The notes under the pieces: generated by a model | What the model was told of the DNA's origin: nothing | Database searches by the model: none | The model's input: only the letters and a program-made list of their open reading frames with translations | Position numbers and translations under genes: made by a program | NCBI RefSeq assembly: GCF_006152065.1 | Contig: NZ_VDFW01000005.1 | Coordinates: 62,001-126,000, forward strand | Source: Amycolatopsis alkalitolerans | Lineage (GTDB): Bacteria > Actinomycetota > Actinomycetes > Mycobacteriales > Pseudonocardiaceae | Length of the DNA stretch: 64,000 nucleotides | Direction of reading: 5' to 3' | Shown here: positions 4,743-61,013 of the stretch, piece after piece | Layout: every line of letters begins with the position of its first letter | Numbering within the stretch: the first letter of the stretch is position 1

Positions 4743-5516
4743 GTGCTGGACGGGATCCGGTGGTTCCCGGGCGCCCGGGAAATCACGGCGCAGGCGCGCG
4801 CGGAGATGCCGCAGAAGAACGGTCTGTGCGGCGCGTTCGTCGCCATGGTTTCCTTGCGTGCCAAGGGAATCCCCGTGCGAGACCAGGACGAGGCCGCGGT
4901 CGCCGTGGGGTCCTTGCTGTCTCCAGGACATGAGCCGACCTGGCCGCCGGGGGAGAAGAGCCGCGAGGACTACCGGCTCGCGTTACCGCACGCGTCCGAC
5001 CCGGCAGCTTCGGGTTCCACTCCGGGCGGGGTGGCGGGTGCGATCGAAACGTTGTCAGACGGTCGCTTGCGGGTGGTCCCGGCGAGCGGCGACTGGGGCT
5101 CCGGATCACTCGCCGCCCTGCTTTCCGGCTTGTCCCAGCTGAACTGGGTCGCTGCGGTGGCCAATGTGGACACCGGGGAGTTCGGTGCGCACGACACCCC
5201 GGACCGCGCGTTGCTCGACTACCTCGAAGGCGGCTTGCCTCCGATGTGGTCTTCCCGTTGGCACGTGGGACATTTCCTGTTGCTCACGGGAACCAGAACC
5301 GGTCCTGGCGGGACCGCCGTGTCCATAGTGGACACTTATCCGTCGCTGGGCGAGCATGGCGTGCACGTGCAGGTGCTCGATCGTCTCGCCGCGGCCCTGC
5401 GCCGTGACACCATGGCGAGCCCTGGGGGTCTCTTGCTCGCCGTCGAGGCCGGCGAGCGGCAGGCGGCCGAGGAACTCGTCACGAGCGCGGGTCTGATTCC
5501 CCGGTTGTGGGCCTAG
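4743..5516 (+). CDS. C39-like (papain-fold) protein next to the GS-like ligase, possibly DUF6885
   Basis: 257 residues with a GTG start directly abutting the ligase stop. I do not recognise a characterised family, though I recall the label DUF6885. The sequence has the layout of C39-type cysteine peptidases: Q24-K-N-G-L-C29-G-A-F-V-A-M resembles the Q-x5-CGPA-x3-M nucleophile helix, RWHVGHFLLLTG (H174 or H177) resembles the HFVVLVG strand, and SIVDTYP (D197) resembles the x-v-x-DP acid. No signal peptide or membrane helix, so it is cytoplasmic. I infer a hydrolase or transpeptidase acting on the product of the adjacent gamma-glutamyl-type ligase; the reaction is unknown. Confidence 0.7.
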   Translation: MLDGIRWFPGAREITAQARAEMPQKNGLCGAFVAMVSLRAKGIPVRDQDEAAVAVGSLLSPGHEPTWPPGEKSREDYRLALPHASDPAASGSTPGGVAGAIETLSDGRLRVVPASGDWGSGSLAALLSGLSQLNWVAAVANVDTGEFGAHDTPDRALLDYLEGGLPPMWSSRWHVGHFLLLTGTRTGPGGTAVSIVDTYPSLGEHGVHVQVLDRLAAALRRDTMASPGGLLLAVEAGERQAAEELVTSAGLIPRLWA

Positions 5517-5744
5517 TGTCGTGTGATCCTGTCCGGTTTACGTTGCCGTGTTTGCCCGTGGGGTCGGTGGGTTTGTCCGCTGCGGTGTCGAGTTGGCTGG
5601 TCCGGTCGCTGATTTTGCCCTAGGCGACAGCGGCCGGCCAACTCGATAACGCCCCGAGCCAACTCAGCGACGCCAAGGGCCAACTCAGCACCCTGGCAAA
5701 CAAACACACCCGCGCGCAAAGACAACAAGATCACGAAACACTAG
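5513..5744. mobile_element. MITE-like element, copy A (complete)
   Basis: A 232-bp block bounded by imperfect 16-bp terminal inverted repeats, CTAGTGTCGTGTGATC at 5513-5528 and GATCACGAAACACTAG at 5729-5744 (13 of 16 pair). Both ends finish in CTAG. The first 158 bp recur at 54302-54459 with 5 mismatches. It carries no transposase. Its left end supplies the TAG stop of the preceding gene. The minus-strand open frame inside it is a by-product of the repeats. Confidence 0.65.
5637..5686 (-). repeat. Three 21-bp-period GAGTTGGC units inside the MITE-like element
   Basis: GCCAACTC (GAGTTGGC on the minus strand) occurs at 5637, 5658 and 5679, exactly 21 bp apart. An inverted GAGTTGGC lies at 5590-5597. 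The period matches the arrays at 9052, 14216, 25246 and 27444. Confidence 0.8.
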
Positions 5745-53726: not shown

Positions 53727-54305
53727 ATGAAGGGGATCCGACTCAGAGTCCAAAAGGGACAGTCAAACCGGACACCGGTTGCCGTGGCCTTCCTGGGTTT
53801 ACCGGTCGCCGCCGCTTCGGTTCTTGTCGCCTGCGGCGGCTCGACGGGCTCGACCGGCTACGGCGCCCCGGCACAGGGCGGCGGCGGGGCGCGGACGGGC
53901 GTGGTGAACGTGCACGACATCAGCGGGCTCGGGCCGACATTGGTGGACGGAACCGGGAAGACGTTGTACTTCAGCGACCAGGAGTCCGGCGGCTCGGTCC
54001 ACTGCGTGGGTGGCTGCCTCGGCTTCTGGTTCCCGGCCACCGCAGGTGATGCGACCGCTGCCGATGCTCAGGCGCCCGGCCTGGCGTCACTGCGACGGCC
54101 CGACAACGGCAAGCAACAGATTACCTACCAAGGAAAACCTCTCTACACGTTTGGGCTCGACGACAGCCCTGGGAAGCACATGGGCGACAATTTCAGCGAC
54201 GACTTCGACGGGCGGCATTTCACCTGGCACGCGGCGACTGTCGGGGCTCCCCGGCAAGTCAACCCCGCGCCACCGTCGCAAAGCGACAGTGGTTACGGGT
54301 ACTAG
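53727..54305 (+). CDS. COG4315-family secreted lipoprotein
   Basis: 192 residues, GGAAGGGG before the ATG. The signal peptide ends in a good lipobox, LVA-C36. The family repeat PTLVDGTGKTLYFS is followed by C93-x3-C97-x3-W101 (VHCVGGCLGFWFP), matching the paralogue at 30359 residue for residue at these positions, then QGKPLYTFGLDDSPG. The C-terminus ends in a Ser/Gly/Tyr tail. It is divergent from the third ECF sigma gene. Its TAG stop lies inside the left end of the truncated MITE-like copy. Confidence 0.88.
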   Translation: MKGIRLRVQKGQSNRTPVAVAFLGLPVAAASVLVACGGSTGSTGYGAPAQGGGGARTGVVNVHDISGLGPTLVDGTGKTLYFSDQESGGSVHCVGGCLGFWFPATAGDATAADAQAPGLASLRRPDNGKQQITYQGKPLYTFGLDDSPGKHMGDNFSDDFDGRHFTWHAATVGAPRQVNPAPPSQSDSGYGY

Positions 54306-54459
54306 TGTCGTGTGATCCTGTCCGGTTTACGTTGCCGTGTTTGCCCGTAGGGTCGGTGGGTTTGTCCGCTGCGGTGTCGAGTTGGCTGGTCCGGTCGCTG
54401 ACTGTGCCCCCGGCGACAGCGGCCGGCCAACTCGATAACGCCCCGAGCCAACTCAGCGA
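54302..54459. mobile_element. MITE-like element, copy B (truncated)
   Basis: 158 bp matching 5513-5670 with 5 mismatches, starting with the same CTAGTGTCGTGTGATC end and containing GCCAACTC at 54426 and 54447. The right third and right terminal repeat are missing. The break is 51 bp from the TIR-STAND stop codon. Confidence 0.75.
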
Positions 54460-54510: not shown

Positions 54511-56370
54511 TCAGTCTCGCTGGTCTGCGATCAGTGCGAGTTGGTCGGCGATGTCGAGCGCTTCGCGGTGGATGGCGTGGAGTTCCTCGCGGAGCTTGCG
54601 GTTGTGTGGCCAAAGGCGTTCGTGCTCGATGCGGCTGACGCCGCCGGGGCGGAGGTCTTCATGCGCGGCGAGGTCGACGTGCCAGTGGGTCAGCCTGCTG
54701 CGGAGGGTGTCGTTGATGAGGCGGTGGACGAGCACGGAGAGGTCGGCGCCGGAGGTTGTGGTGTGCAGGCAATGCGGCGGCACGTCGCCGTAGACACTGC
54801 GGGTCGTTTTCAGTAGCTCGTACAGGGAGGTGAGTGCATCCCGCAGTGAGCCTTCGTCATCGGTGAGCGGGTGCCCGGTGATCCGGTGGAGCAGTTCGGT
54901 CTGGATCCGGTGAGCTGCTCGTGCTTGCTCCCGGTTTCCCGGTCTCGCCGCGCGTGAGGGTGCGGGGTGTGGCTGGGTGAGCCACTGAATGGTGCGTGCC
55001 CGGATGAGCTCGGCGCGATAGGGATCGGCGTCGAGGCGACGGAGCGCAAGGACGAGCCCGTTCGGGAGCGTCAGCTCGACCGCGTCGGGGCGGGCGGCCA
55101 CGACGCCGCGAGCGAGCAGGTCGGTCGCGGCATGCTGAACCGGGACGAACTCGTGCAGCCGTTCGGTGCCGTGCAGGGAGCCAACGATGTCGGCCACATG
55201 AAGGAGCGAGACCTTCGTGGGGGCGGCCGCGGCGAGGACGCGAAGGACGTCCCAGTGGTTGTCGTCGAGTCCATCCAGTACCGGCGTGAGCCGTTCGGTC
55301 AGCGCGGACAGCAGCGGAGAGGCCGGCTGGTGCAGCCTGGTAAGGGCAGTGTCGACGCCGTCGCGTGCCGCCAGTTCCGCGATTCGGCTGCGCAGATAGG
55401 GACTTCCCGCCGTCGACTGGGTGAGCTGCCGCAGCGTCACGGTGTCAGGCGTGAGCCCGTGCGCGCTTAGTAGGTGCGCCGACTCGTCGTCGTCGAGGTC
55501 GTCGAGGGCGAGGGCGTTGCCGAATGCCGCCAGTCTCGGATCGCGCGTCAGGACGAGACACGGCTTGCCGGGCTCGGGCGGCAAATGGGCGAGCACGCGC
55601 TCGAAATCGCCCTCGGCATCGTCGAGCACCCACAGGGCGGTGCCCGGAGTACCGGGCGGAGCAGGGGCGGGGCGGGTCGCCGACCGCCAGACGATGCCGG
55701 AGAAGGCCGCGCCGAAGCGGCGGACGTACTGTGCGGCCAGGGCGGTCTTGCCGATTCCGGCTGGACCGTGCACGACGACGACCGGGGTGCTCGGCCGGGT
55801 GGTGAGCGGGCCCACGTCCGGATGCAGGGCGGAATGCAGCCACCACAGTTCACGCCAGCGGCCGACGAAATCGTTGAGCGGGCGGATCACCGTGCCGGAC
55901 AGCCACCGTGGTGGGCGTTCGGGAACCTCGCCCATCGGGCCGGGAACGTCCGCGAGCCGATCGGCTACGGCTTTGACCACCTCGTCCAGTGACGCGGACG
56001 CGGGAGGGAGCAGGACGTCGCGCAGGTGCCTGGGTTCGATGTGGTCGACGGTCCGTTCGAGGTTGATCGCGACGGCGCGGCGCAGCGGGTCGCCCTCGGC
56101 CTGGCCGGTCAGGTACGCCGTGGCGAACTCGTACTGGCACGCTGAGCGGGTGGGGTAGTCGGCGGAGTAGCAGGCCAGCAGCACGCGGCTGGCGCGCAGG
56201 GCCCGCAGGATCGAGTCGGAGATCGAGGTGAAGGGATTGACCGCGCCGACGGCGCGGAACACTCGCAGTCCCGCCTCCGTCAAGGCGGCCGCGACGGTGG
56301 CAGCCGCGGCCTCGTCGGCGTGGCCGTGGCTGACGAAGACATCCCAGGTTTGCCCTGCCGCGTCGTTCAT
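54511..56370 (-). CDS. TIR-STAND (NLR-like) NTPase
   Basis: 619 residues. The N-terminal TIR domain (8-140) begins WDVFVSHGHADE and has the catalytic-type Glu at 81 in SACQYEF, the position of the NADase glutamate. The NB-ARC/STAND NTPase has Walker A GPAGIGKT (202-209) and Walker B WVLDDAEG (D250-D251), then winged-helix-like helical regions to about 450. The C-terminal 170 residues are helical with no recognised repeats and could be the sensor. By analogy with bacterial TIR-STAND defence proteins, binding of a trigger would activate NAD+ cleavage. A G10 tract lies upstream. Confidence 0.85.
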   Translation of the reverse strand: MNDAAGQTWDVFVSHGHADEAAAATVAAALTEAGLRVFRAVGAVNPFTSISDSILRALRASRVLLACYSADYPTRSACQYEFATAYLTGQAEGDPLRRAVAINLERTVDHIEPRHLRDVLLPPASASLDEVVKAVADRLADVPGPMGEVPERPPRWLSGTVIRPLNDFVGRWRELWWLHSALHPDVGPLTTRPSTPVVVVHGPAGIGKTALAAQYVRRFGAAFSGIVWRSATRPAPAPPGTPGTALWVLDDAEGDFERVLAHLPPEPGKPCLVLTRDPRLAAFGNALALDDLDDDESAHLLSAHGLTPDTVTLRQLTQSTAGSPYLRSRIAELAARDGVDTALTRLHQPASPLLSALTERLTPVLDGLDDNHWDVLRVLAAAAPTKVSLLHVADIVGSLHGTERLHEFVPVQHAATDLLARGVVAARPDAVELTLPNGLVLALRRLDADPYRAELIRARTIQWLTQPHPAPSRAARPGNREQARAAHRIQTELLHRITGHPLTDDEGSLRDALTSLYELLKTTRSVYGDVPPHCLHTTTSGADLSVLVHRLINDTLRSRLTHWHVDLAAHEDLRPGGVSRIEHERLWPHNRKLREELHAIHREALDIADQLALIADQRD

Positions 56371-56411
56371 GCGCCTCGCCTCGATGGTGCGGCGGGAACG
56401 TCAAATGCGAC

Positions 56412-56421
56412 GGGGGGGGGG
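56412..56421. repeat. Homopolymer of ten G (C on the coding strand) upstream of the TIR-STAND gene
   Basis: Ten consecutive G lie 42 bases upstream of the TIR-STAND start, beside GGTATACC (56420-56427). Its location between the two genes could affect spacing or transcription. Confidence 0.9.
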
Positions 56422-56440
56422 TATACCATTTCCGCGATTG

Positions 56441-57130
56441 TCATTCGGCAAGCCCGATTACGTCCAGATAGCCGTCGTATTCCGCCATCTTGGCGAATGC
56501 GATCGCTTGTGGCCGCAGCTGGGCCTGCAGGTCGCGCAACTCGGTGCGGAACGCCTTGTCGTCGGACCATTCCGACTCCGGTTGACCGGGATTTGCCGCA
56601 CGCCAGTCAGAGTACCGCCGATGCCACGTGCTCAAGAACGGGCGAAGGTGACAGGTGAGCATGTTCATCGCGAGCACGTCCACGTTCGGCCTGCCGGGTG
56701 TCGGACGGGCGCCGGCGTCTTCGTCCAGCAGTTCACGCACGAACCGAAACAGTGAGTGCAGTGACGCGACGGCCTCATCCACGCGCCCGGCGTCGTCGTC
56801 CAGCGGCTGGACGGCGACCCTCGTCGCCATCTGCACGACGATGCGCCGGGCCATCACCTTGTGGTCCTTGGTGACCGCGAACTTCACCTTGCTGAACTGT
56901 GGCACCGTCACCTCCACCTCGGAGACGGCGGCCGACTTGGTCAACCAGGCCCAGATGACCGCGCCCAGCGCGGCGGTGACGCCACCGGTGATCACGTAGA
57001 GGGCGACGCCGCTCAACCGCGACGCGTAGTATGCGAGCCCGCCGATGGCCATTCCGGCGACGGCGGCGACCAAGAGTGCCAGCAGGCGGTAGCGGGTCCA
57101 CCAGCCCGCCCAGGCAAGCGACTTTCCCAC
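56441..57130 (-). CDS. Two-helix membrane protein partner of the TIR-STAND gene
   Basis: 229 residues from the GTG at 57130, which has GGGGGGAG 6 bases upstream; the frame opens at 57163. Two membrane helices at about 15-37 and 41-63 in a hairpin precede a cytoplasmic region of about 165 residues with a beta-like part (EVEVTVPQFSKVKFAV) and helices. No family recognised. It is 70 bases upstream of the TIR-STAND gene on the same strand, so probably co-transcribed. A membrane effector or anchor is possible. Confidence 0.75.
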   Translation of the reverse strand: MGKSLAWAGWWTRYRLLALLVAAVAGMAIGGLAYYASRLSGVALYVITGGVTAALGAVIWAWLTKSAAVSEVEVTVPQFSKVKFAVTKDHKVMARRIVVQMATRVAVQPLDDDAGRVDEAVASLHSLFRFVRELLDEDAGARPTPGRPNVDVLAMNMLTCHLRPFLSTWHRRYSDWRAANPGQPESEWSDDKAFRTELRDLQAQLRPQAIAFAKMAEYDGYLDVIGLAE

Positions 57131-57227
57131 GCTGCTCCCCCCTCGCTCCGGCCGTCCCGACACGGTCCGTCATCAGCGCCCTGCTGATCGTATCGAGGAT
57201 GTCCTGGGGGAGGCCAGTGCAGCCGGG

Positions 57228-57264: not shown

Positions 57265-59073
57265 TTAGACGTAGTCCTTGTACTTCTCCAGGAACCGGAC
57301 GGGTTTCGACAGCGCGTCGCGGCGGAACGGGTCGCCCAGCTCGCGGGTGCACATGATCTCCAGCACCGTGGTGCGGCCCTGGTTCATCTGCGCGTCGACA
57401 GCCTGCTGGAGCGCCGGGCCGACCTGGTCCAGTTCGTCCACGACGACCCCGTCGGCGCCCATCGACCTGGCGATCCCGGCGAAGCTCGGGTTGTCCAGCT
57501 CACCGGCCACGAAACGGCGGTCGTAGAAGTCGACCTGGTTCTTCTTCTCCGCTCCCCACTGCCGGTTGTGGAACACCACCGCGGTGACCGGGATGTCGTG
57601 CCGGACGCAGGTCAGGATCTCGCCCATGCTCATCCCCCACGCGCCGTCGCCGGCATAGGAAACCGCCGGCCGGTCCGGGGCGGCGACCTTCGCGCCGATG
57701 ATGGCGGGCAGGGCGTACCCGCAGTTGCCCCAGCTCATCGCGGCGAACATGCTGCGAGGCCGTTCGAAGCGCAGGTAGCTGTTCGCGACCGAGTTGATGT
57801 TGCCGATGTCCGTGGACACCATTACGTCGGCGGGCATCGCGTGCTCGAGCTCCCGCAGCACCTGACGCGGGTGAAGCCAGCGACCTTCCTCGTGCTCGGC
57901 TTCGCTGATCACGTCGAGGCTGTACGGGTCCTTCTCGTGCGTCCACGCGGTGAGCTCGCTTTCCCACGCTTCCTTCTCCGCGCGCAGCTTCGCCATCCGC
58001 TGGTCGCGGGTGGCGTCGCAGGCCAGTGTCCGGTCGGCCAGCCGTTCGGACAGCGCGTGCGCGGACGCCTTGGCGTCGCCGCAGATGCCGACGGTGACCT
58101 TCTTGACCAGGCCCAGCATCTTGTGGTCCGCGTCGATCTGGATGATCTTGGCGTTGGCCGGCCAGTAGTCGAGACCGTGCTGGGGGAGCGTGCCGAACGG
58201 GCCGAGCCGGGAGCCGAGCGCGATCACCACGTCGGCCTGGGCCAGGAGCTTCATGGCCGCCTTCGAACCCTGGTAGCCGAGCGGCCCGCACCACTGCGGG
58301 TGGCTCGCGGGGAACGAGTCGTTGTGCAGGTAGCTGTTGACGACCGGGGCGCCGAGCCGCTCAGCCAGCGCCTTGCACTCCTCGACGGCGCCGGCCATCA
58401 CGACGCCACCCCCGGAGATGATCACCGGGAACTCCGCGGCGGCGAGCAGTTCCGCCGCTTCGTTGAGGCTCTGCTGCCCGCCGGGGCCGCGGTCGAGCCG
58501 CCGTGGTTCGGGGATCTCGGCGGTGATCTCGCCGTAGAAGAAGTCGCGCGGGATGTTGAGCTGCGTCGGCCCGATCTCGGACATCGCCCGGTCGAAGGCG
58601 CGGCCGGTCAGTTCGGCCATCCGCTTGGGGTTGTTGACGTGCGCCTGGTACTTGGTGAACTCCTGGAACATCGGCAGCTGGTGGGCCTCCTGGAAGCCGC
58701 CGAGCCCGATCCCCATCGTGCCCGCTTCCGGGGTGACCACGACGACGGGGCTGTGGGCCCAGTAGGCGGCCGCGACCGCCGTGACGCAGTTGCTGATACC
58801 CGGGCCGTTCTGGCCGATGACCATCCCGTGCCGGCCGCTGACCCGCGCGTACCCGTCGGCCATATGCGCCGCGCCCTGCTCGTGCACGACGGGGACGAGC
58901 CGGATTCCGGCCGGCGCGAAGATGTCCATGGCGTCCATGAAGGCGGAGCCCATGATGCCGAAGATGTCCGTGACCCCGTTGGCGACCAGCGTTTCGACGA
59001 AGGCCTCGGACGGAGTCATCTTCGTCGGCCCGCTCGCCACCGTGCGACCGTCCGCTGTCTTCCTGTCCGCCAT
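57265..59073 (-). CDS. xsc: Sulfoacetaldehyde acetyltransferase
   Basis: 602 residues. Thiamine-diphosphate enzyme layout: PYR domain with VHEQGAAHMADGYARVSG (activating Glu), a central DHS-like domain, and PP domain with the GDGAWGMSMGEILTCVRHDIPVTAVVFHNRQWG motif. GMVIGQNGPGISN and KPVRFLEKYKDYV are features I associate with Xsc rather than acetolactate synthase. It converts sulfoacetaldehyde plus phosphate to acetyl phosphate and sulfite in taurine or isethionate breakdown. It is divergent from the IclR regulator. Confidence 0.9.
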   Translation of the reverse strand: MADRKTADGRTVASGPTKMTPSEAFVETLVANGVTDIFGIMGSAFMDAMDIFAPAGIRLVPVVHEQGAAHMADGYARVSGRHGMVIGQNGPGISNCVTAVAAAYWAHSPVVVVTPEAGTMGIGLGGFQEAHQLPMFQEFTKYQAHVNNPKRMAELTGRAFDRAMSEIGPTQLNIPRDFFYGEITAEIPEPRRLDRGPGGQQSLNEAAELLAAAEFPVIISGGGVVMAGAVEECKALAERLGAPVVNSYLHNDSFPASHPQWCGPLGYQGSKAAMKLLAQADVVIALGSRLGPFGTLPQHGLDYWPANAKIIQIDADHKMLGLVKKVTVGICGDAKASAHALSERLADRTLACDATRDQRMAKLRAEKEAWESELTAWTHEKDPYSLDVISEAEHEEGRWLHPRQVLRELEHAMPADVMVSTDIGNINSVANSYLRFERPRSMFAAMSWGNCGYALPAIIGAKVAAPDRPAVSYAGDGAWGMSMGEILTCVRHDIPVTAVVFHNRQWGAEKKNQVDFYDRRFVAGELDNPSFAGIARSMGADGVVVDELDQVGPALQQAVDAQMNQGRTTVLEIMCTRELGDPFRRDALSKPVRFLEKYKDYV

Positions 59074-59187
59074 GGATGCACCCCTTCACGCCGTTGTGTT
59101 GCGAAAATCGGTATGGAGCGTTCCTGAAATCAGGATGATGAGACTGACCATAAGCGGGCGGTGACGTTGGGTCAATGACTTCTTCCG

Positions 59188-59228
59188 GAAAACGAGACGA
59201 GATGTGCTAGTTTCTGAGAACGAGACGT
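59188..59228. promoter_or_regulatory. Direct-repeat operator between xsc and the IclR gene
   Basis: AACGAGACG occurs at 59191 and 59219, 28 bp apart. Each is preceded by a TTCYGR half-site (CTTCCGGAA and TTTCTGAGAA). It probably binds the adjacent IclR protein. Confidence 0.5.
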
Positions 59229-59250
59229 CCCGACGACTCTGGGAGACGCT

Positions 59251-60066
59251 GTGGAGCTGATACGCGAGCCCGACAGCTCGGTGAGCGGCGACACGCCGGC
59301 CCTGCGCTTGTTCTCGCTGATCGAGCGAATCGCCGGCAGAGACCAGCTGGTCACGCTGCAGGGTCTGGTCGAGGAGACCGGCCTGCCGAAGCCGACGGTG
59401 CACCGCATGCTCCAGCAACTGGAGGCGGGCGGGCTGCTCATCCGCCAGGCCGACGGGCGGCACTACGGCACCGGGGTGCGGTTGCGGCGGCTCGCCGAGA
59501 ACCTGCTGCTGAACGCGACGCACCACGGTGCCCGGCATGCCATCCTGGCGCGGCTCGTCGACGAGCTGGGGGAAAGCTGCAACATCACCGCGTTGTCCGG
59601 CAGCGAGATCGTCTACCTGGACCGCGTGGAGACCTCGGAGCCGTTGCGCTTCTACCTGCGGCCGGGTTCGCGGGTGCCGGTGCACTGTTCGGCGACCGGC
59701 AAGATGATCCTGTCGCAGTTCACCCCGGCCCAGCGCCGCCGCCTGCTCGGCGCCGCGCCACTGCGTTCCTACACGCCCAAGACCGTCACCGACCTCGACC
59801 GGCTCGAAGCCGAGTTCGCCCGCGTCCGGGGCGACGGCTTCGCGCTCGATCGGGAGGAGTTCCTGCCCGGGCTCGTCTGCGTCGCGGTGCTGGTGCCCGC
59901 GCGCAACGGCCGGTCCAACCTCGCCGTCGCCGTGCAGGCGCCGGTGATGCGGCTGACCCCGGACAAGGCACCGGACACGCTGCCCGCGCTGCGGCGGGCC
60001 GCGAACGCGATCAGCGAGGTCGAAGCCATGGCGGCGGCGGACAACGTCGAAGAAATCCCCTCGTGA
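59251..60066 (+). CDS. IclR-family transcriptional regulator
   Basis: 271 residues, GTG start. The winged helix-turn-helix is at about 17-75 ([45 protein letters not shown]) and the IclR effector-binding domain at 85-260 ([34 protein letters not shown], the effector-pocket region). It probably controls xsc and its own operon from the shared intergenic operator. The effector is unknown, possibly a C2 sulfonate. Confidence 0.92.
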
Positions 60067-61013
60067 AGGGAAACCTCGTGACGGATCCGGCCCAGCACCT
60101 CGTCTCCGCTCGCGACGTGTTCGGGCTCGATTCGCGGCTGGCCGTGCCCGCCTTCCGCGAGCGAGGCGAGCACGTGCCGGAGATCGACGAGGTGTACCGG
60201 TTCAACCCCGACGTGACGCGTGCCGTGCTCGCCGGGTTCGCCCGCAACCGGCGCGTGCTCGTGCAGGGCCTGCACGGGACGGGGAAGTCGACGCATGTCG
60301 AGCAGGTCGCGGCGCGGCTCAACTGGCCTTGCGTGCGGGTGAATCTCGACGGGCAGCTGAGCAGGCTCGACCTCGTCGGCAGGGACGCGGTGGTGCTGCG
60401 GGGCGGCAAGCAGGTGACGGAGTTCCAGGAAGGCATCCTGCCGTGGGCGCTGCGGCGGCCGGTCGCGCTGATCCTGGACGAGTACGACGCCGGCCGCCCC
60501 GACGTCATGTTCGTGATCCAGCGCCTGCTCGAACGCGACGGCATGTTCACCCTGCCCGATCAGCACACGGTGCTGCGCCCGCATCCGGGTTTCCGGCTGT
60601 TCGCGACGGCGAACACCGCGGGGCTCGGCAATCTCACCGGTCTCTACCACGGGGTCCAGCGGCTCAACCACGCCCAGCTGGACCGGTGGAACATCGTGGT
60701 GGCGCTGGACTACCTGCCGCCGGCCGAGGAGATCGCGATCGTCCGGGCGCGGGTGCCGCGGCTCGACGGTGAGCTCGCGGCCGCGATGGTCGCGGTGGCG
60801 AATCTGACCCGCGCGGGCTTCCGGGGCGGTGACCTGTCGACTCTGATGTCGCCCCGGACCGTCATCACCTGGGCGGAGAACACCGAGATCTTCGGCGACT
60901 GCGCGCTGGCGTTCCGGCTGTCCTTCGTGAACCGGTGCGACGAGGCGGAACGGCCGGTGGTGGCCGAGTACTACCAGCGCTGCTTCGACACCGAGCTCGC
61001 GCTCACGGCCTGA
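60063..61013 (+). CDS. CobS-like AAA+ ATPase
   Basis: 316 residues, GTG start overlapping the IclR stop (GTGA); a second GTG lies five codons further. AAA+ motifs: Walker [13 protein letters not shown], Walker [13 protein letters not shown], sensor-1 LFATANTAG. Overall it resembles the CobS subunit of aerobic cobaltochelatase and MoxR-type ATPases. No CobN is encoded here, so B12 synthesis is not implied. It is paired with the VWA protein gene that follows. Confidence 0.9.

Follow-up and report, generated by a model that had tools for sequence, protein, structure and literature searches.

A 64,000-nucleotide stretch of the Amycolatopsis alkalitolerans genome (NZ_VDFW01000005.1, assembly GCF_006152065.1, positions 62,001 to 126,000 of the forward strand; hereafter the window, whose positions are used as coordinates) carries two genes, encoding a TIR-STAND protein and a two-helix membrane protein, that most likely constitute an immune two-gene module of the TIR-NLR type. 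The helical C-terminus of the TIR-STAND protein and the cytoplasmic part of the membrane protein are one domain. The homology of the two domain copies, the recurrent pairing of receptor and partner genes and the association of the domain with TIR genes were all computed, and there is judged to be an even chance that the shared domain is an adaptor coupling a TIR-NLR-type sensor and NADase to its membrane-anchored partner.

The receptor and its membrane partner

The membrane gene lies 5' of the TIR-STAND gene on the same strand, and the 70-base spacer between them, given in an earlier model-made reading of these letters (the original prediction), is correct from the coordinates. The GTG start of the membrane gene at 57130 is preceded by the ribosome-binding-like GGGGGGAG, and a second in-frame GTG stands upstream at 57163. 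The features of the pair are as follows.

54511–56370, minus strand: TIR-NB-ARC (STAND) protein, 619 amino acids, ATG start, shared domain at the C-terminus (open reading frame, Pfam, profile, model)
56053–56340, minus strand: TIR domain, residues 11–106 (Pfam TIR_2, 9.4e-13)
56128–56130, minus strand: codon of Glu81, which falls at the conserved Glu position of other TIR domains in alignment (invariant, 40 aligned sequences)
55744–55767, minus strand: Walker A GPAGIGKT, residues 202–209 (sequence, alignment)
54523–54933, minus strand: C-terminal copy of the shared domain, approximately residues 480–616, predicted four-helix bundle (BLASTP, profiles, model)
Minus strand: helices of the TIR-STAND copy at residues 480–496, 509–528, 544–571 and 590–614 (model)
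56441–57130, minus strand: two-helix membrane partner, 229 amino acids, GTG start (open reading frame, hydropathy, model)
57020–57091, minus strand: transmembrane helix 1, approximately residues 14–37 (hydropathy; model helix 3–37)
56933–57010, minus strand: transmembrane helix 2, approximately residues 41–66 (hydropathy; model helix 42–66)
56873–56923, minus strand: predicted beta hairpin of the membrane partner, residues 70–86 (model)
56480–56869, minus strand: shared domain of the membrane partner, residues 88–217, predicted four-helix bundle (BLASTP, profiles, model)
Minus strand: helices of the membrane-partner copy at residues 88–103, 117–138, 150–179 and 191–215 (model)

The TIR domain with a catalytic-type Glu81 and the STAND NTPase named in the original prediction are both confirmed by the TIR_2 match, the only one in the window's genome, and by Glu81 and Walker A residues G202, G205, G207 and K208, which are unchanged across 40 aligned TIR-STAND sequences. 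The single-sequence Pfam matches to AAA_16 and NB-ARC fall under the family cut-offs; a profile of the 40 sequences matches the TIR and NB-ARC domains of plant Roq1 among PDB sequences, as well as the NB-ARC regions of AfsR and Apaf-1. The best PDB fold match of the TIR-STAND model (mean predicted local distance difference test, pLDDT, 87.8) is the TIR-NLR RPP1, with Apaf-1, CED-4 and Roq1 also within the top 12. The protein thus has the TIR domain with its conserved Glu and the NB-ARC ATPase with Walker A that belong to the TIR-NB-ARC class, and it lacks the repeat sensor. The earlier statement that no repeat sensor could be recognized holds insofar as the Pfam scan gave no repeat family of the LRR, TPR or WD40 type in the C-terminus; what had been overlooked is that this C-terminus is a four-helix domain (profiles, model) homologous to the partner's own.

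The shared four-helix domain

Residues 469–603 of the TIR-STAND protein align in BLASTP with residues 77–204 of the membrane protein at 4e-8 (numbered from the GTG at 57130; 88–215 from the upstream GTG), and hhalign of the two families' profiles gave a probability of 98.8 and an E value of 8e-17 over 135 columns, although the two copies in the window are only approximately 25% identical. The model of the membrane protein (mean pLDDT 84.1) has two long helices, a hairpin and then four helices, and the layout of these four is the same in both models. Run against the whole genome, the combined profile matched only the window's two proteins at E 10.

The domain has no evident relative in the collections searched. 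In Pfam, which as far as known includes the published effector-associated domain (EAD) families, none of the 21 members scanned gave a match better than 0.0067, a value reached by one member only; 49 members scanned with NCBIfam and PADLOC gave none better than 0.0068. No PDB relative was found by sequence (best match 1.2) or by Foldseek at E 0.001, a fold search in which helical bundles are uninformative, and searches of a partial open-access library did not bring up the domain, which is weak evidence of absence from print.

Several residues are kept across all classes of the domain, namely R104/R496, R132/R524, W169-H170/W563-H564, W188/W587 and R195/R594 (membrane/fused numbering), and E185/E584 is likewise kept, being present in 88% of the fused copies. 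The membrane copy of the window deviates from the common residues in having D118 instead of Arg and R177 instead of Glu. Many partners, soluble or two-helix, possess a strand-like stretch before the first helix, which was seen neither in the fused copies nor in the short partners of approximately 150 amino acids among the rows viewed (about one in three).

Pairing of receptor and partner across genomes

The domain was sought in 390 genomes of the host's family and in 396 genomes of the phylum, with 10 candidates per genome being scored, a number that makes both searches undercount. The phylum search matched only the window's genome, and the family search found the domain in 27 of the 390. Besides the window's genome, 18 family genomes have a domain-bearing TIR-STAND gene, and all 18 have one or two adjoining domain genes, 17 of these loci with partners that lack a two-helix anchor and one (L037; L-numbers label the compared loci) with an anchored partner shortened by a stop. 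The TIR-STAND frame of L054 and its domain are split over two frames, and in another genome of the window's genus the TIR-STAND gene is broken (L059:8931–10912). A different genus of the family has, in five genomes (L044–L047, L049), a lone soluble domain gene of 182–193 amino acids, with no TIR gene beside it by the subfamily's TIR profile and a weak match 6 kb off in L046.

A scan of named genomes by one domain motif, LREALTSL[YH], gave at least 80 loci, which are no census since they were picked by a single motif and limited to 80, and among which close species are counted several times. Complete TIR-STAND-domain genes occur in 22 of these 80, and 21 of the 22 have a partner. It is of the two-helix type in 13, lying 107–226 bases 5' of the TIR-STAND-domain gene in the window's same-strand arrangement in 12 of them and on the opposite strand in L131; the other eight loci have a divergent partner without the two-helix anchor. 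In the remaining one, L113, no partner was found within 18 kb. Three more TIR-STAND-domain genes (L104, L119, L138) are apparently cut by contig ends, L119 being judged from its domain part alone. Together with the window's own, 41 TIR-STAND-domain loci are complete or nearly so, and 40 of them have a separate nearby domain gene, which is of the two-helix type in 15 (one truncated) and without the anchor in 25. The pairing of the two families expected in the original prediction therefore does recur, a two-helix partner accompanying the TIR-STAND gene in 13 of the 22 complete named loci and, truncated, in one of the 18 family loci; the notion of a dedicated two-helix partner does not extend to the majority, as most partners lack the two helices.

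A tree was built from 154 domain copies over 138 columns, with one support measure. In it, the fused copies form one cluster of 40 together with three cut or split copies (support 91, not starred), and this cluster pairs with either two-helix or soluble partners. The partner labels in the tree follow a simple hydropathy rule that misplaces some rows (L038, L137); by this rule, 86 of the 154 rows are soluble and 28 two-helix, and L137 forms a cluster with 25 of the latter (support 99, starred), while three stand elsewhere. The L137 domain lies in this two-helix cluster, yet no helices are apparent in its reading frame. L035, which has two soluble partners, and L037, which has a two-helix one, carry the fused copies with which that of the window groups (support 92, not starred). 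As these relatives have different partner types, the tree, with moderate support, suggests an exchange of partners between related receptors.

Association with TIR genes in several phyla

The shared domain occurs beside TIR genes in several bacterial phyla. The profile used to locate TIR genes had 14 of these loci and five homologues as its seed; a TIR gene lies within 1.5 kb of the domain gene, or is fused to it, in 67 of the 80 named loci listed, and within 2.3 kb in three further loci. When the 22 complete and three cut fused loci are set aside, a TIR gene is found within 1.5 kb in 45 of 55 loci, within 2.3 kb in three and not at all in seven (L078, L087, L099, L103, L122, L123, L137). Among 54 full-length stretches, a TIR gene was within 1.5 kb in 48, versus 19 on average and at most 28 in 1000 random placements, and within 500 bases in 42, versus a mean of 13.6 and a maximum of 23, in a control for which the stretches were themselves chosen for the domain and one gene was placed, while any stand-alone copy counted in the observed value. 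TIR_2 matches number 1–17 per genome across 18 genomes searched; the single one in Desulfosarcina widdelii lies 575 bases from the domain gene.

By Pfam, the neighbours include TIR-GUN4 proteins adjoining a soluble domain gene in cyanobacteria, WD40-Ras/Roc-TIR proteins in Calothrix and Nostoc relatives, TIR-WD40 proteins in Chloroflexota and Streptomyces, and TIR-NB-ARC-TPR or TIR-TPR proteins in Streptomyces and Geodermatophilus. TIR_2 was listed for 14 of the 17 neighbouring or fused TIR candidates scanned; L085, L135 and L140, with WD40, had none among the best 25 families listed. In Geodermatophilus saharensis, four TIR and NB-ARC open reading frames surround one soluble domain gene (L108:3149–15438), with TPR in the one scanned. 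The domain is also present on ten plasmid records, and in seven of the eight viewed, a set that includes L065, a TIR gene is within 1.7 kb of the domain gene, an IS5 transposase standing between the two in L159; no TIR gene was recognized on the eighth, a Ruegeria plasmid (L155).

Genomic site

The site fits an accessory locus, as the original prediction had it, on the strength of the comparison with relatives and of the adjoining copy of a dispersed element. Four relatives of the same genus keep the xsc-IclR-CobS block without the pair in the flanks fetched, and in one of these the sigma/anti-sigma/lipoprotein block is found on a different contig; the pair thus sits between two blocks that are not joined in that relative. 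Among the named TIR-STAND loci, most flanks bear no relation to one another, with some soluble-partner loci (for example L100, L102, L105) sharing flanking genes. The truncated mobile element reported beside the locus is a 158-bp piece of a dispersed element of approximately 232 bp that has imperfect inverted ends and, counting this piece, at least 41 matches in the genome. No defence gene was recognized among the seven neighbours scanned with Pfam (six also with NCBIfam; PADLOC covered the pair only), these being metabolic or regulatory (xsc, IclR, CobS-like, LigD-type polymerase, sigma/anti-sigma and lipoprotein genes).

54302–54459, no strand assigned: 158-bp truncated copy of the approximately 232-bp dispersed repeat, resembling a miniature inverted-repeat transposable element, in the flank outside the module (repeat comparison)
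5513–5670: further truncated copy of the same repeat
57265–61013: block of xsc (sulfoacetaldehyde acetyltransferase), an IclR regulator and a CobS-like ATPase, retained by four relatives of the same genus

Proposed mechanism and alternatives

In NLRs, the core is known to undergo ATP-driven oligomerization that activates the TIR domain, and the C-terminus senses the trigger in most TIR-NLRs. In the adaptor model, the NB-ARC ATPase of the TIR-STAND protein would likewise serve as an NLR-like switch driving oligomerization, and the oligomerized TIR domain would consume or convert NAD+. The C-terminal sensor position would be taken by the small four-helix adaptor domain, which is also the partner's cytoplasmic domain. 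Binding of receptor and partner through the domain is the simplest reading because the partner's domain occupies the place of the sensor; the two copies probably bind each other, and the partner may tether the receptor to the membrane and gate or relay its activation. In other bacteria, the domain could be the adaptor of TIR systems alone, on a two-helix anchor, on a patatin phospholipase or on a TIR-STAND protein. Physical binding, the direction of control, NADase activity and the role in defence are what we infer for the pair.

Several observations weigh against this model. A domain gene or fragment stands alone in seven family genomes, and 10 of the 80 named loci have no TIR match, three of these being the apparently contig-cut TIR-STAND genes. 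The domain profiles found no copy in the TIR-GUN4, TIR-WD40 and TIR-TPR neighbours, and domain-domain contact is therefore no general rule. Neighbouring EADs tend to be each other's closest relatives (PMC7159879), unlike the adjacent copies here with their low identity. The residues kept in all classes could instead surround a ligand pocket or stabilize the fold.

A Thoeris-like arrangement, rather unlikely in our estimate, draws on the patatin and two-helix forms and the NUDIX neighbours of the domain. The TIR protein would make a nucleotide from NAD+, the shared domain would be its receptor, the two-helix partner (patatin in rhizobia) would be a membrane-perturbing effector, and NUDIX would remove the signal; the effectors of Thoeris with a transmembrane (TM)-macro ThsA are proposed to act in this manner (PMC11204291). 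In Sinorhizobium, Mesorhizobium and Rhizobium, the domain forms the N-terminus of a plasmid-encoded patatin protein of 858–890 amino acids whose gene has several TIR genes around it, the patatin being found in all three rhizobial proteins scanned (Pfam 2.1e-5, slightly under the cut-off, 1.2e-8 and 9.5e-7). The domain thus occurs in effector-like positions, in some loci of Streptomyces and Spongiactinospora a NUDIX gene adjoins it, a SLOG gene follows a two-helix gene at a locus where no TIR was found, and the invariant Arg, Trp and His are present in all classes. These features are located as follows.

L157:3902–6478, L156:3902–6526 and L160:3905–6577: domain-patatin fusions on rhizobial plasmids
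L137:9499–10098: NUDIX gene adjoining the domain gene (Pfam)
L135:9516–10058 and L140:9503–10132: NUDIX genes adjoining the domain gene, 81–82% identical to that of L137
L158:3170–3739 and L159:4604–5143: NUDIX genes beside two-helix-domain genes on Streptomyces plasmids (annotation)
L122:9540–10361: SLOG cluster 2 gene 3' of the two-helix-domain gene (Pfam)

An Nmad2 gene is also present in L157. Against the Thoeris-like arrangement, most copies have no effector part, as the soluble labels of the tree indicate, in the fused form it is the TIR enzyme that carries the domain, and the fold search gave no nucleotide-binding relative, though helical bundles are uninformative in it.

It is improbable that the partner is instead an immunity protein that restrains the TIR-STAND protein by occupying its C-terminal domain until infection frees it. 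The close linkage in same-strand or divergent layout would suit such an inhibitor, as would the general need of toxic TIR enzymes for restraint; however, NLRs are normally restrained by their own domains, L113 has a TIR-STAND gene and no partner found within 18 kb, and rhizobia have the domain joined to patatin. Still less probable is a signalling role outside defence, such as developmental or envelope-stress control in filamentous bacteria with TIR as a scaffold, for which speak the NB-ARC regulator AfsR among the profile's PDB matches, the neighbours scanned, without a defence gene, and the lack of any viral-contig or phage match, and against which stand the sparse distribution in the family, the insertion between conserved blocks, the mostly differing flanks, the plasmid copies and the conserved TIR Glu.

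Beyond the adaptor model, there is somewhat less than an even chance that the domain marks an undescribed branch of TIR immunity that crosses phyla, receiving TIR output as protein or NAD+-derived nucleotide and relaying it to exchangeable outputs (two-helix membrane protein, patatin phospholipase or TIR-STAND amplifier). Immunity in bacteria, plants and animals relies centrally on TIR enzymes, and many of the bacterial ones have no known partner that reads their output; one domain that accompanies diverse TIR architectures in several phyla, on membrane helices or a phospholipase, offers a direct handle on such readers. If true, the branch would do in bacteria what the EDS1-type relay does downstream of plant TIRs, a functional analogy with no homology claimed. 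The window's pair is a compact case, with one TIR_2 gene in the genome, one partner and one shared domain.

Comparison with known systems

The TIR and NB-ARC core of the receptor is shared with plant RPP1 and Roq1. The sensors of these two are of the leucine-rich repeat (LRR) type, unlike the four-helix shared domain of the window's protein. The TIR-NLR label is also shared with a protein of P4-like satellites that is reported to protect E. coli against phages, a likeness of description (PMC9122126).

Similar to Thoeris with a TM-macro ThsA, a TIR protein is found beside a transmembrane protein with a cytoplasmic domain (PMC11204291), but the cytoplasmic domain here is modelled as a four-helix bundle, has no macro match and is also fused to the TIR protein. 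The pair lacks a defining feature of Thoeris, a ThsA with SIR2-SLOG or TM-macro: Pfam gave no SIR2, SLOG or macro match in either window protein, and the PADLOC ThsB models match just the start of the TIR part, weakly. EACC1 is likewise a two-gene conflict system of actinobacteria with a small membrane protein upstream of a variable effector, though with one transmembrane helix and a caspase partner where the window's pair has two helices and a TIR partner (PMC7159879).

In gene organization, the pair parallels the EAD systems. For EADs and bacterial Death-like domains, homotypic binding has been proposed (PMC7159879; PMC8195603), and there, as in the window, a small domain that matches no enzyme is carried both by a STAND or effector protein and by the product of an adjacent gene (PMC7159879; PMC8195603). 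The domain described here differs in comprising approximately 130 amino acids without a Pfam family and in being tied to TIR genes. The same domain on the core and on the adjacent-gene protein is found in the window and in 39 of the 40 other complete or nearly complete loci, and by analogy the gene organization follows the effector-associated-domain principle.

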